Shown here: one piece after another, positions 4,254 through 8,575 of the stretch | Position numbering within the stretch: position 1 is the first letter of the stretch | Layout of the letters: the number at the start of each line of letters is the position of its first letter | Assembly (NCBI GenBank): GCA_017964325.1 | Contig: JAGCSE010000311.1 | Span: 1-8,713 of the forward strand | DNA length: 8,713 bases | From: Victivallales bacterium | GTDB taxonomy: Bacteria > Verrucomicrobiota > Lentisphaeria > Oligosphaerales > Oligosphaeraceae | Direction of reading: 5' to 3' | Made by a program: the position numbers and the translations under genes | Notes under the pieces: generated by a model | The model's database searches: none | What the model was told of the DNA's origin: nothing | The model's input: the letters and a program-made list of their open reading frames with translations, nothing else

Positions 4254-4378
4254 AATCTTCCATTCATTTTTCGGTCCAAATACACGCATATCCATGACAT
4301 TACCAGACAATCATGCTTTTTCAAACTTTTCCAATCAAACTTCGCAGCCATCGCTTAATTGAAATTCCTCCGATTTCT

Positions 4379-4408
4379 TTGAATCTGACTAAAAAAACAT
4401 CATATTAT
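4379..4408 (+). promoter_or_regulatory. Candidate thrC promoter
   Basis: TTGAAT (4379-4384) and TATTAT (4403-4408) are separated by 18 bp and would start transcription around 4415, about 43 nt before the thrC ATG. The 4254-4457 region between the divergent mutY and thrC genes is very A/T-rich from 4390 to 4440, so several other hexamer pairs are possible. The thrC ribosome site is AAGGAA at 4442-4447, about 10 nt from the ATG, which is slightly long. No leader-peptide attenuator with threonine or isoleucine codons is seen. Confidence 0.4.
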
Positions 4409-4457
4409 ATATTGGTATATTGTCATTATATCATTAAAAAGAAGGAACACATTTTTT

Positions 4458-5849
4458 ATGAGCGCATTTTCCAGCTATATCAGCACGCGGGGCGGCGTCG
4501 CTCCCGTCGATTTCGCACAGGCCGTCATGATGGGGCTCGCCGATGACGGCGGTCTTCTCATTCCGTCACAAATACCGTCCATTGAAAAAGATATATTGGA
4601 CAGATGGCGATCGCTCACCTACCCTGAACTGGCATGCGAAGTCATGCGTCCGTTCGTTGGAGACGCCATCCCATACGATGATTTCAAACAGCTTGTCGCC
4701 AAAAGCTACGCGACGTTCCAAGCCGACGACGTCATTCCTGTCAAAAAAGTTGGAAAAGTCTTCATCTGCGAACTCTTCCACGGCCCGACATTGGCCTTCA
4801 AAGACGTTGCGCTCCAACTGCTTGGAAATCTCTTTGAATATCTGCTCAAACGCGACGGCGGCAAGCTGAACATCATCGGCGCCACAAGCGGTGACACAGG
4901 CAGCGCCGCCATCCATGGCGTCCGCGGCAAACAGGGCATCGACATTTTCATCATGTTCCCAGACGGCCGTGTCAGCCCGTTGCAGGAACGCCAGATGACC
5001 ACCGTTCCGGACGCCAACGTCCACTGCATCGCCGTCAAAGGCACGTTCGACGATGGCCAGCGCGTTCTGAAAGAAGTCTTCAACGATCTTGATTTCAAAC
5101 GTTCCTACCATCTAGGTGCCGTCAATTCCGTCAACTGGGCCCGCGTTCTCGCACAGGTCGTCTATTATTTCTGGGCATCTTTCAAGGCGCAGAAAGAGAC
5201 AGGCGCCGCTGCTGTCCAAATCGCCGTTCCGACAGGCAATTTCGGCGATATCTTCGCGGGCTACGTCGCCCTCCGCATGGGAGCCCCCATCCGCCGTCTC
5301 ATTCTCGCCACGAATGAAAATGACATTCTCAGCCGTTTCTTCAACACGGGCGTCTATAGCCGCGGGAATGTCTGCCCCACGCTCAGCCCGAGCATGGACA
5401 TCCAGGTGGCCTCCAACTTCGAACGCTACCTCTACTATCGCGTCGGCCAGAATCCGGAAAAAGTCCGCGCCCTCATGGCGCAGTTCGCCACCGAAAAATC
5501 CCTCACGATTCAAGACGGCGGTGACGCCACGTTCGCGGCCGGCCGCGGCGACACGGCGATGACGCTGGATGCCATCAAACGTTATTATGATTCAGATGGT
5601 TATATCCTCGATCCGCACACCGCCGTCGGCATCTCCGTCGCGGAAAAATTCCTTGCGGACGACATCCCGACGGTCTGCCTGGCAACCGCCCATCCCTCCA
5701 AATTCGCCGCCGCCATCCAGAAGGCTCTCGGACAGGATCTGGCTCATCATCCTACGCTGGACGCATTGGTCAATCTTCCGACGCGCCGCGTCACGCTCGA
5801 TCCGCAAAAGGACGTCATTGAAAAATATGTTTCGGATTGCTTGAAGTGA
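4458..5849 (+). CDS. thrC: Threonine synthase
   Basis: The 463-aa PLP enzyme converts O-phospho-L-homoserine to L-threonine plus phosphate, the last step of threonine synthesis, in the cytoplasm. Visible landmarks: YISTRGG (7-13) and MMGLADDGGLLIP (24-36), the typical ThrC N-terminus; PLP Schiff-base Lys115 in TLAFKDVALQ; phosphate-binding GATSGDTGSA (141-150); QERQMTT (176-182); VNSVNWARV (222-230); PTGNFGDIFAGY (258-269); and a late DPHTAVG (385-391) and ATAHPSKF (409-416). Length and motif order fit the E. coli/yeast-type enzyme. The ATG is preceded by AAGGAA. The gene is GC-rich (38 of 60 bases in 5221-5280 are G or C), unlike the gene that follows. No other threonine-pathway gene (thrA, thrB) is in view, so this copy stands alone here. 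Confidence 0.97.
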   Translation: MSAFSSYISTRGGVAPVDFAQAVMMGLADDGGLLIPSQIPSIEKDILDRWRSLTYPELACEVMRPFVGDAIPYDDFKQLVAKSYATFQADDVIPVKKVGKVFICELFHGPTLAFKDVALQLLGNLFEYLLKRDGGKLNIIGATSGDTGSAAIHGVRGKQGIDIFIMFPDGRVSPLQERQMTTVPDANVHCIAVKGTFDDGQRVLKEVFNDLDFKRSYHLGAVNSVNWARVLAQVVYYFWASFKAQKETGAAAVQIAVPTGNFGDIFAGYVALRMGAPIRRLILATNENDILSRFFNTGVYSRGNVCPTLSPSMDIQVASNFERYLYYRVGQNPEKVRALMAQFATEKSLTIQDGGDATFAAGRGDTAMTLDAIKRYYDSDGYILDPHTAVGISVAEKFLADDIPTVCLATAHPSKFAAAIQKALGQDLAHHPTLDALVNLPTRRVTLDPQKDVIEKYVSDCLK

Positions 5850-5888: not shown

Positions 5889-6003
5889 CCTTGTTTTGGT
5901 GTAGAATTGCGCTATCTTAAACCTTGTTTTGGTGTAGAATTGCATTTCCTGAAGCCTTGTTTTGGTGTAGAATTCACCTCTATCAAATCCTCGTTTTGGT
6001 GTA
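5889..6003 (+). repeat. Array of four phased direct repeats directly upstream of the AAA+ ATPase gene
   Basis: The 20-mer CCTTGTTTTGGTGTAGAATT is exact at 5889-5908, 5922-5941 and 5955-5974; the first two copies share a further GC, making 22 bp. A fourth, diverged copy, CCTCGTTTTGGTGTA, is at 5989-6003. The 11-mer GTTTTGGTGTA is common to all four, starting at 5893, 5926, 5959 and 5993, with periods of 33, 33 and 34 bp. The 11-14 bp between copies are unrelated. The array ends 9 nt before the ATPase ATG. The period is close to three helical turns, as in iteron or operator arrays, but no binding protein is known from the sequence. Each of the first three copies carries a -10-like TAGAAT. Confidence 0.9.
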
Positions 6004-6012
6004 AGTACTTTT

Positions 6013-7362
6013 ATGAAGCGCAAGATTTACAACAAATTGAAAAAATGGAAAAATGAGTGGAATGGAAAGAGTGCTATTTTGATTGACGGTGCACGCCGTG
6101 TCGGTAAAAGCTACATCGTGGAGGAATTCGCCCAAAACGAATACAAGTCCAACATCATCATTGACTTCAGCAAGGGAAACCAACACATCAATTCGCTGTT
6201 TGTCGAATACCTGTCTGATTTGGACACTTTTTTCCATCATTTGAGCCTCCTGACGAATGTCCGATTATATCCACGTCAATCAATTATTGTGTTTGACGAA
6301 GTCCAGCAGTTTCCACCAGCACGAGCCGCCATTAAGCATTTGGTAAAGGACGGGCGTTTCGACTATATCGAAACTGGTTCATTAGTCAGTATCAACAGAA
6401 ACGTGAAGGATATCGTCATCCCTTCCGAAGAGGAGAGAATCGATATGTTTCCCATGGATTTCGAAGAATTTCTATGGGCGATAGGCAAAGACGATCTGAT
6501 GGACTATATCCGTGAATGCTTTGAAAACAAAAAGCCATTAGGAGGGGGACTTCATCGTAAGACAATGGAACTTTTCAGGCAGTACATGATTGTCGGTGGT
6601 ATGCCGCAGGCAGTGGAAATATACACAAAAAACACAGACTTTGACAAAGTCGATAAAGTGAAGCGCAGTATCCTGAATATATACCGTGCGGACATAAGTA
6701 AATATGCAACAGGATATGAACAAAGGGTGACCAGAATTTTCGATTCCGTCCCGCCACAGCTCCAAAAGCATGAAAAGCGATTCCGCATTGGAGCATTGAA
6801 AAAAGGAGCACGTACACGCGATTACACCAATGCTTTCTTCTGGCTAGAGGAGGCAAGGGTGGTCAATGTCTGTTATGCTGCCACCGAACCAAATGTCGGA
6901 TTGTATCTCAATCGCGATGACGCCCGCATGAAACTATACATGGCCGATACAGGCTTGCTTATCGCCATGGCGTTCAGTGAAAAGGACATCCATCATGAAC
7001 AGCTTTATACAAAACTGATGTTTGACAAACTGGAAATCAATAAAGGAATGCTTATTGAAAACATTGTGGCGCAAATGCTTAAAGCAACCGGAAATGACTT
7101 GTTCTTCTACTCGAAATCTTCACGTAATGCAGAAGACCGTATGGAAATCGACTTTCTTGTACGCAAACCATCTATTACATCACGCCACAATATATCCCCT
7201 GTGGAAGTGAAATCGTCTTCCCGTTATTCCCTGACATCACTTGAAAAGTTTATCAGAAAATACGGTAGATATCTATCCACGCCATACGTTCTGCACCAAG
7301 GCGATCTTGTGGAAAAAGATGGCATCACCTACCTTCCGCTGTATATGGCATCATGCTTGTAA
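6013..7362 (+). CDS. AAA+ ATPase with C-terminal DUF4143 (PD-(D/E)XK-like) domain
   Basis: The 449-aa protein has the architecture of the AAA_14-DUF4143 family, whose cellular role is unknown; individual members are often called archaeal-ATPase-like. Seen: Walker A GARRVGKS (26-33, Lys32); Walker B SIIVFDEVQQF (90-100, Asp95/Glu96); a sensor-1-like ETGS (120-123); MFPMDFEEFLWA (145-156), a family hallmark; YMIVGGMPQAV (191-201); and KLYMADTGLL (307-316). The C-terminus has Glu349 in GMLIENIVAQ, Asp380 in MEIDFLV and Glu398-x-Lys400 in PVEVKSS, in the order expected of a PD-(D/E)XK nuclease fold. No signal peptide or membrane segment is seen. The ATG has no clear SD, and in-frame upstream codons offer no other start. 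Base composition is lower in GC than the neighbours (20 of 60 bases in 7021-7080). The repeat array sits just upstream. Family call is confident; function is unassigned. Confidence 0.93.
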   Translation: MKRKIYNKLKKWKNEWNGKSAILIDGARRVGKSYIVEEFAQNEYKSNIIIDFSKGNQHINSLFVEYLSDLDTFFHHLSLLTNVRLYPRQSIIVFDEVQQFPPARAAIKHLVKDGRFDYIETGSLVSINRNVKDIVIPSEEERIDMFPMDFEEFLWAIGKDDLMDYIRECFENKKPLGGGLHRKTMELFRQYMIVGGMPQAVEIYTKNTDFDKVDKVKRSILNIYRADISKYATGYEQRVTRIFDSVPPQLQKHEKRFRIGALKKGARTRDYTNAFFWLEEARVVNVCYAATEPNVGLYLNRDDARMKLYMADTGLLIAMAFSEKDIHHEQLYTKLMFDKLEINKGMLIENIVAQMLKATGNDLFFYSKSSRNAEDRMEIDFLVRKPSITSRHNISPVEVKSSSRYSLTSLEKFIRKYGRYLSTPYVLHQGDLVEKDGITYLPLYMASCL

Positions 7363-7414
7363 ATCCATAAACATGGTGTTCTATCGTCACTTACCCAAAA
7401 CAAGAGAAAGAAAT

Positions 7415-8473
7415 ATGTCCATCTCCACTTGCCCCAAATACCTCCTGCCCTACGCGGACCTTTGGCAAAAGAACCACAAGGAGGCCATTCTCGCGTGGTT
7501 CAAAGACGCGAAATTCGGCCTTTTCCTCCACTATGGCCTGTATTCGCTGCTCCATCGCCATGAATGGACCATGTTCATGGACAAGATCCCGCTCGCAAAA
7601 TACGAACAACTTGCGACGCAGTTCACCGCCCATCACTTCAACGCGGACGCCATCACGGATCTCGCCCTCGCGGCCGGCATGAAATACATCAATCTGACGA
7701 CATGCCATCACGAAGGCTTCTGCCTGTGGGATTCCAAAATCGAGCCGTTCAACGTCATGAACACGCCCTGCGGCCGCGATCTTGTCGGCGAACTCAGCGA
7801 GGCCTGCGACCGCAAAGGCCTCGGCTTCTTCGCCTACTACACGTTCATGCAGAGCTGGCGGCATCCGTATTTCGTCGATCGTTCCATCCTCAAGACGGCA
7901 CGGCCGGACTATCCGACGCCCGAGCCACGCTATCTTTATCGCAAGAAGGAAGATTTCGCACGCTACATCGACTACATCAACGATGTCATGGACGAACTGC
8001 TCTCCAACTACAAAATCACCGGCATCTGGCTGGATCTCATCTCCGCATGGTGGTGCATGGGAGAGGATTACATTCCCATCGAAGGCATCTACGCCCGCAT
8101 CCGCAAGAACCATCCGGACGTGCTGATTTCATGGAAACAAGGCGCCACGGGAACGGAGGATTTCGCGTCGCCGGAGAACAACTTCGAAAGCGCCGTCGAA
8201 AACGCCCGCAAGAATTTCGGCAACGCGGGTGCGGAACGCGCCCAGCGCGGCTTCGCGGGCAACATGCACAAGCATAACGAAGTCTGCTCCAGCATTCAAC
8301 GCGGCACATGGGGCTACTGTCCGCTCTATGAAAACCGTACGGCGGACGAACTACGCGCCTTCCTGCGGGAAATCAACGCCAAAAACTGCAACCTGCTCCT
8401 CAACGCAGGCCCCATGGCCGACGGCGCAATCAGCCCCATCCATCAGAAAATCCTGCTGGACATAAATGCGTAA
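7415..8473 (+). CDS. Alpha-L-fucosidase, GH29, short catalytic-domain-only form
   Basis: The 352-aa protein should hydrolyse terminal alpha-L-fucose by the retaining GH29 mechanism. Seen: AWFKDAKFGLFLHYGLYS (27-44), the GH29 opening with substrate-site His39; YEQLATQFTAHHFNADAI (63-80); MKYINLTTCHHEGFCLWDS (89-107) with His98/His99; TGIWLDLISAW (202-212) with the predicted nucleophile Asp207; SPENNF (252-257); EVCSSI..WGYCP (289-303); and CNLLLNAGPMADG (325-337). The protein ends there, without the C-terminal beta-sandwich of longer GH29 enzymes. The acid/base residue cannot be fixed by eye. No signal peptide follows ATG 7415, so a cytoplasmic enzyme acting on imported oligosaccharides is inferred. 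The frame stays open upstream to 7241, but that part overlaps the ATPase gene. The ribosome site is weak (GAGAAAG). It begins 52 bp after the ATPase stop with no terminator seen between. Confidence 0.9.
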   Translation: MSISTCPKYLLPYADLWQKNHKEAILAWFKDAKFGLFLHYGLYSLLHRHEWTMFMDKIPLAKYEQLATQFTAHHFNADAITDLALAAGMKYINLTTCHHEGFCLWDSKIEPFNVMNTPCGRDLVGELSEACDRKGLGFFAYYTFMQSWRHPYFVDRSILKTARPDYPTPEPRYLYRKKEDFARYIDYINDVMDELLSNYKITGIWLDLISAWWCMGEDYIPIEGIYARIRKNHPDVLISWKQGATGTEDFASPENNFESAVENARKNFGNAGAERAQRGFAGNMHKHNEVCSSIQRGTWGYCPLYENRTADELRAFLREINAKNCNLLLNAGPMADGAISPIHQKILLDINA

Positions 8474-8575
8474 TTAACAATTAACAATTAACAATTTATC
8501 TATCGCCTCTAGTGCCTCTAGATCATCTAGAGCCTCCAGAATTTCTTGAAAAAAGTTAATTGTTAATTGATAATT
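8472..8575. terminator. Large heptamer-built inverted repeat between convergent genes, likely bidirectional terminator
   Basis: The left arm (8472-8492) is three exact AATTAAC heptamers, starting inside the fucosidase TAA stop; the right arm (8555-8575) is GTTAATT, GTTAATT, GATAATT. The arms are reverse complements over 21 bp with one mismatch, around a 62-nt insert. The right arm ends 2 nt before the stop codon of the minus-strand gene. Right-arm flank AAAAAAG and the A/T-rich stem leave only short U-tracts, so intrinsic termination would be imperfect. The symmetrical placement between two stops supports a two-way 3'-end role, which is inference. Confidence 0.6.
8505..8539. repeat. GCCTCTAG direct repeats and a 17-nt palindrome inside the large hairpin
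   Basis: GCCTCTAG occurs at 8505-8512 and 8514-8521 and, with one change (GCCTCCAG), at 8532-8539. A perfect palindrome CTCTAGAT-C-ATCTAGAG lies at 8516-8532 and would form a small stem in the loop of the surrounding inverted repeat. There is no open coding frame through this stretch. Confidence 0.65.

Follow-up and report, generated by a model that had tools for sequence, protein, structure and literature searches.

A 33-bp-phased direct-repeat array upstream of PDC-S01 ATPase-nuclease genes, a probable private operator of the encoded protein

Introduction

Direct repeats beside the gene of their binding protein are known from plasmid iterons and from Orc1/Cdc6 origin boxes, and an initiator gene next to its own boxes is a known archaeal layout. 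CRISPR arrays, another class of regularly repeated DNA, consist of long repeats with protospacer-sized spacers. For the promoters of defence genes, a tested case is the operator of RptR, in which direct repeats lie over the -10 box and full repression requires two intact repeats, according to the available part of the source (PMC12255303). PMC12988326 describes PDC-S01 as a fusion of an ATPase with a PD-(D/E)XK member, ranks it fourth by frequency among the defences of prokaryotes and regards validation as still pending for most PDCs; in the rumen genome survey of PMC13356809, no individual locus is reported to be more frequent.

The locus presented here lies in an 8,713-nucleotide contig of a Victivallales bacterium (GCA_017964325.1, JAGCSE010000311.1), the whole of which is called the window. 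It carries a gene of the PDC-S01 family preceded by an array of direct repeats, an element that goes unmentioned in the passages of PMC12988326 and PMC13356809 on the protein and its distribution. An initial annotation, made from the letters alone, had proposed that the array could be an autoregulatory site, the DNA target of the encoded protein or the end by which a mobile cassette is recognised.

Results

The array and its gene

The three exact 20-bp copies and one diverged copy described in the initial annotation were confirmed by exact matching, shuffling and TRF (Table 1). The unit CCTTGTTTTGGTGTAGAATT occurs three times in the window, whereas 200 dinucleotide shuffles gave a mean of 0.00, and TRF placed the array at 5889-6003 with a period of 33, 3.5 copies and a score of 135. 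Exact copies of the core GTTTTGGTGTA lie at 5893, 5926, 5959 and 5993, in agreement with the spacing of 33, 33 and 34 bp given before, while its chance mean with up to one mismatch was 0.12. Self-alignment of the array yielded 42-nt stretches at 86% and 76%, with the agreement mostly within units. The final core ends at 6003, and the ATG of the gene is at 6013. Since 33 bp corresponds to 3.14 turns at 10.5 bp per turn, the idea that all copies share one face of the DNA holds roughly, not exactly.

Table 1. Coordinates of the array, the hexamers within it and the gene behind it (window numbering).
Feature	Position	Strand	Remark
Array unit 1, CCTTGTTTTGGTGTAGAATT	5889..5908	+	exact copy; TRF
Array unit 2, identical to unit 1	5922..5941	+	exact copy
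Array unit 3, identical to unit 1	5955..5974	+	exact copy
Array unit 4, diverged	5989..6008	+	core GTTTTGGTGTA exact at 5993-6003
TAGAAT, -10-like hexamer, 3 nt from the unit's GTG	5902..5907, 5935-5940, 5968-5973	+	weak candidate
AAA_14-DUF4143 gene, 449 aa, PDC-S01 family	6013..7362	+	domain and PADLOC matches
AAA_14 domain, residues 20-154	6070..6474	+	domain match
DUF4143 domain, residues 226-402	6688..7218	+	winged-helix-like region, then PD-(D/E)XK-like motif
Codons 369-371	7117..7125	+	encode the residues linked by covariation to bases 1-3 in the unit's variable 7-nt core

Other short repeats were observed elsewhere in the window. Intergenic CTAGA-type repeats at 8505-8540 are similar to repeats upstream of the genes of two other Victivallales loci (L083 and L085), and at 8472-8575, 3' of the fucosidase gene, an AATTAAC tandem repeat is set opposite an inverted copy. 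No plasmid-type Rep was detected in the five window genes scanned (the gene at 1-1046 was left out; contig of 8.7 kb).

The gene behind the array is flanked by threonine synthase on one side and alpha-L-fucosidase on the other. A protein 99% identical to a window protein is recorded under the name of a Victivallales bacterium, in keeping with the probable host. PADLOC model PDLC04786 (PDC-S01) matched the full protein (residues 1-449, E 8.2e-115), and both domains are present in a single gene with intact catalytic residues, as expected of a PDC-S01 member. Within the AAA_14 domain, GARRVGKS and FDE are taken to be Walker A and Walker B, respectively, and E378, D380, E398 and K400 presumably represent the PD-(D/E)XK-like motif. 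This reading of the nuclease motif agrees with the available part of PMC12988326.

A PDB sequence search with the window protein returned no meaningful match and an NCBIfam search no match. The structure model (pLDDT 87.9, pTM 0.88), searched as a whole and matched mainly over residues 1-360, appears to resemble the ATPases PAB2304 and SSO1545 and, to a lesser degree, STAND and Orc1/Cdc6 proteins. As Orc1/Cdc6 on origin DNA (2qby) was among these predicted structural matches, an origin-like element, with an initiator beside its own origin boxes, was considered. This reading is very improbable: the top structural matches are PAB2304 and SSO1545, the protein has a nuclease domain, and such genes occur in many copies per genome, as exemplified by the 26 DUF4143 matches in the host of the related locus L034 (genome G060).

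Occurrence of the array in the gene family

Arrays were scored upstream of homologous genes as 15-mer units with up to four mismatches, 31-35 bp apart, within 250 bp upstream and with a score of at least 9. Removal of 7 duplicates and of 5 sequences failing length, start or upstream filters from 158 family ORFs left 146 PDC-S01-like genes, of which 121 had an array of two to six units at 31-34 bp and 25 had none by this criterion. Arrays were scored for only 1 of 292 sequences shuffled by dinucleotide and for 7 of the 522 unrelated ORFs in these loci. The 283 spacings were distributed as 1, 45, 194, 43 and 0 at 31, 32, 33, 34 and 35 bp, respectively, the last having been allowed. ATPase and nuclease residues are intact in 118 of the 121 array-bearing proteins and in 21 of the 25 array-less ones. 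A CRISPR array was ruled out by these unit counts and by the 20-bp unit and 13-bp spacer between the exact copies of the window.

Arrays were also present in 21 of 22 genes absent from the 146, a set that is no random sample because it was picked by similarity to locus L081. This set was derived from 33 loci (L309-L341): seven were dropped for being at least 97% identical to training proteins and L330 had no usable ORF, leaving 25, and three of those are G060 paralogues within the 146, so that array presence was counted over 22. On named plasmids, arrays preceded 11 of 14 PDC-S01-like genes, chosen for variety among 59 records (for L346 the start of the match, not an annotated start, was used), and these span Bacteroidota, Bacillota, Actinomycetota, Fusobacteriota, Gammaproteobacteria and Chlamydiota; among the 14, those of Bacteroides pMMCAT, Ruminococcus albus 7 and Vibrio coralliilyticus had no array by the criterion. 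An array was also observed at a PDC-S01 gene of Segatella copri DSM 18205. The array thus belongs to the gene family and not to the window sequence alone.

In a sister subfamily of 390-aa AAA_14-DUF4143 proteins, for which start codons were picked less carefully, arrays were found in only 13 of 103 genes. Ten of 18 spacings in this subfamily (L219, L230, L078 on the minus strand, and others) were 32 bp, and some of its units are palindromic.

Spelling of the repeats

Upstream of homologues, the direct repeats have an equal period and other letters. Between genomes, the proportion of gene pairs sharing units (up to two mismatches) was 82% at protein identities of at least 80% (n=186), 14% at 65-80%, 7% at 55-65%, 7% at 45-55%, 1% at 35-45% and 0.00 (rounded) below 35% (n=7796). 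Among same-genome paralogues, taken from 17 genomes or contigs that each carry at least two arrays, 4 or 5 of 200 ordered pairs shared a unit; three of these cases fell in the 35-45% identity bin, where they make up 0.14 of 22 pairs, above the between-genome rate. Eleven PDC-S01-subfamily genes were read in G060, eight of them with an array by the criterion, and all eight repeats differ. Because sharing tracks protein identity and paralogues differ, the repeat goes with the protein and not with the host. On one G060 contig, two PDC-S01 paralogues (L034 and L164/L243) stand back to back, and their arrays differ.

This private spelling bears on the genome search proposed in the initial annotation, which was too narrow in using the exact letters, since spacing and layout are conserved and letters are not. 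A two-unit pattern in the window spelling had four matches in 395 Bacteroidota genomes, which is not above the reversed control (six matches in two genomes); one of the four is intergenic and directly 5' of a DUF4143 gene, and three are inside ORFs. A looser repeat pattern gave matches in relatives close in number to its reversed control. Given that the letters change between genes, exact-repeat searches are little informative. Genome-wide scattering of the repeat, or its absence upstream of close homologues, had been named as grounds for doubt; the window-spelled repeat is not scattered over the 395 Bacteroidota genomes, and an array stands upstream of the close homologues at L034-L036.

Overlap with the promoter

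Alignments of the clade to which the window protein belongs show units of the form A(A)(T/C)CT-N7-GTG(T/C)A. The motif TAnnTTTG, which we take to be the -7 promoter element of the Bacteroidales relatives, was present at 57 of the 76 Bacteroidales loci with an array, compared to 11% in shuffles. Among 47 loci with an N7-type array and this element, a unit lies 5' of the element in 34, where TAnnTTTG starts exactly 3 nt from the GTG of the unit in 21 cases and 11-13 nt from it in 8, and the element is ahead of the first unit in the other 13. A promoter-like stretch downstream of the array was read from the sequence at L007/L008. In the window itself, a sigma-70 scan scored no promoter, and the TAGAAT hexamers are phased as the -7 element is in many of the Bacteroidales relatives.

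As judged from these motif positions, the overlap of array and promoter occurs in part of the relatives, and units phased over a core promoter represent an operator-like layout. The roles as an autoregulatory site and as DNA target of the protein are both favoured by the promoter overlap in Bacteroidales relatives, the family-wide occurrence and the covariation presented below, which held in part on held-out loci; both roles are predictions from sequence.

Covariation of residues and bases

In an analysis of 67 loci (effective number 30), bases 1-3 of the N7 segment covaried best with residues 369-371, which form a loop ahead of the catalytic strand in the nuclease domain. With G at base 2, residue 371 was Arg in 43 of 51 loci; with A, it was Glu or Asn in 11 of 12; and with G at base 3, residue 369 was Tyr in 9 of 10. 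For residue 371 against bases 1 and 2, the tree-aware family-wise p values were, respectively, 0.032 and 0.037, and 0.063 and 0.007 in a rerun, while residue 369 was top-ranked for base 3 and not significant (p 0.18, rerun 0.27). The region of residues 369-371 was picked after seeing the covariation scan, so the p values of the region test flatter the result, and the spacer control and held-out loci are safer.

The seven spacer positions showed no link with this region (p 0.06-0.93). For one of them, the unrelated column of residue 7 gave p 0.033, which indicates that a single p of such size is not rare. Residue 30 (V/I, in Walker A) covaried with base 4 of the unit about as strongly as residue 371 with base 2 (family-wise p 0.023 and 0.013); this covariation extends to bases 4-5, has no structural reason, and was right in 8 of 12 held-out loci.

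The 25 held-out loci are related to the training loci, with identities of 47-84%, and thus not independent; one of them, L335, has no array by the criterion, and 12 are without an N7-type unit, leaving 13 able to score the code. Residue 371 predicted base 2 correctly in 8 of 9 loci and Tyr at 369 predicted G in 3 of 3, with L341, whose unit assignment is doubtful, giving both the single failure for 371 and one of the successes for 369. Rules derived for the winged-helix region, which had seemed sound in the discovery set, failed on these loci (residue 265 for base 7, 2 of 11; residue 234 for base 6, 4 of 7). Taken together, the covariation suggests that the protein probably reads its own array and that the loop of the nuclease domain probably takes part in the reading, with the rest of the code tentative.

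The covariation of a nuclease-domain loop with the unit, the retention of catalytic residues and the place of PDC-S01 among candidate defence families (PADLOC; accessible part of PMC12988326) are also what would be expected if the array were a working site of the nuclease in immunity, for parking, licensing or self-cutting, with transcription secondary. We consider this decidedly unlikely, because the phase relative to the promoter is simplest as that of an operator and a nuclease cutting its own promoter would demand tight control. Least credible of all is a short tandem duplication that is neutral, or an RNA leader with structure: TRF does score the array as a tandem repeat, but spacing is equal and letters differ across phyla, fitted rates are 11-33 at spacer positions and 1.4-7.1 at core positions, showing that spacers evolve faster, the RNA folding z is -0.29, and no Rfam match reached the gathering score.

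Joint transfer of array and gene

Homology between distant genomes covers the array and the gene and stops near the stop codon. The window shares 76% with L034 and with L036 from about -95 to +1349, with no other match in the compared flanks, and the hosts of the window and of L034 belong to different phyla. The same was observed for L087/L090 (94%, -161 to +1363) and L096/L097 (94%, -157 to +1385), whose flanks are without other match, and for L060/L082 (92%), in which array and gene are accompanied by one 71-bp piece; L083/L085 (upstream side only) and L093/L095 (mainly downstream side) agree with these limits. Array and gene travel together. The pair L081/L105 was rejected as an example with unrelated flanks, as displaced homologous pieces were found on both sides.

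In two near relatives of the window (G001 and G003), the gap between threonine synthase and fucosidase is empty, and in G005 it holds two units of the window repeat, where homology ends one base before the ATG and no gene follows; the flanks in these comparisons have drifted. The solo array of G005 (L116, about 1407-1465) and one at about 4458-4508 of L113 end approximately at a would-be start codon. Such gene-less arrays are possibly remnants of gene loss or decoys.

Over 115 downstream regions, inverted unit copies with up to three mismatches were absent (0 regions, 0.45 expected), and no matching inverted or direct transposon end was recognised behind the gene. Direct unit copies were present in 4 of the 115 at up to one mismatch (0.00 expected) and in 12 at four mismatches (3.7 expected). 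A close second array with an equal repeat follows the gene in L061, L101, L113 and L293. At L101, two extra arrays of the same repeat lie 3' of the gene, at about 4354-4435 (a near copy of the upstream array) and about 5963-6044. In the window, CCCAAAACAAGAG at 7394-7406, about 30 bp past the stop codon, is an inverted partial copy of the unit.

The proposal of a mobile cassette end stood in part, since array and gene move as one, and failed in part, as a matching far end was not found over these regions. A minimal mobile element, in which the ATPase-nuclease would bind the array as a recognition end and move array and gene, could account for the homology limits, the empty sites in G001 and G003, the two-unit leftover in G005 and the second arrays of the four loci. 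It is nevertheless unlikely: the right end is not constant, inverted copies are at chance, direct arrays are found in 4 of 115 regions, and ordinary recombination moving a functional unit would look alike. Without a constant far end, the transposon reading is not supported.

Viral and phage sequences

A scan of viral contigs by peptide patterns found nothing. Twelve phage records matched, the best 62% identical over the full length, and the ten listed are unannotated. On a 418-kb viral contig (L308), an exact 20-nt unit at 4691-4710 lies 25 bp before an ORF in a promoter-like place; by estimate, this is roughly what chance would permit in so large a collection, and the match is probably fortuitous.

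Discussion

The occurrence, spelling and covariation of the array are, on balance, best explained if it is a private operator or docking site of the protein encoded behind it, with a role that is chiefly autoregulatory, and we regard this reading as probable. Multiple molecules of this AAA+/winged-helix/nuclease protein would bind the 33-bp-spaced units side by side, perhaps cooperatively, reading bases through the nuclease-domain loop (residues 369-371) and probably also through the winged-helix region. Because units overlap the core promoter in part of the relatives, the bound protein would most likely repress its own gene. Under repression, a dangerous nuclease may stay scarce and parked, to be freed by a signal such as ATP state, phage DNA or titration in what would presumably be a defence response. 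With many paralogues per genome, each would need its own spelling, and so loop and repeat would change together, while array and gene would form a self-sufficient unit that survives horizontal transfer.

A more far-reaching form of this operator reading is offered only tentatively, as one joint claim. The family would be a one-gene addressable system in which the 33-bp-phased array is the own DNA address of each copy; the nuclease loop would do part of the reading through the simple pairings Arg371-G, Glu/Asn371-A and Tyr369-G, so that paralogues are insulated; and the array would also assemble and hold the nuclease, with orphan arrays possibly acting as decoys.

The array provides a handle on PDC-S01, as it supplies each protein with a candidate DNA ligand and points to a promoter for assays and to residues for mutagenesis. 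More generally, it touches on the question of how numerous similar regulators in one genome avoid cross-talk, for which the PDC-S01 family offers many natural specificity switches. Searches by title and start of the abstract gave, among the matches listed, no paper on repeats upstream of PDC-S01 genes, preprints and most subscription papers lying outside their scope. As far as these searches go, the private, protein-matched array phased at 33 bp is an undescribed cis element of a common candidate defence gene.

Compared to known systems, the archaeal ATPases PAB2304 (2qen) and SSO1545 (2fna) correspond to part of the protein, their matches ending near residue 320 with the nuclease part outside. 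Plasmid iterons and Orc1/Cdc6 origin boxes share the arrangement of repeats beside a gene, whereas PDC-S01 arrays have many copies per genome, a 33-bp spacing and a protein with a nuclease domain. A further likeness is to RptR, whose direct repeats overlap a defence promoter (PMC12255303), as the units appear to overlap the promoter in part of the Bacteroidales relatives. According to that source, RptR is a separate regulator, and its operator has one conserved 6-bp palindrome in three 9-bp repeats located 58-31 bp before the start codon, whereas in PDC-S01 the private site, with its 33-bp spacing, appears to be read by the ATPase-nuclease itself.
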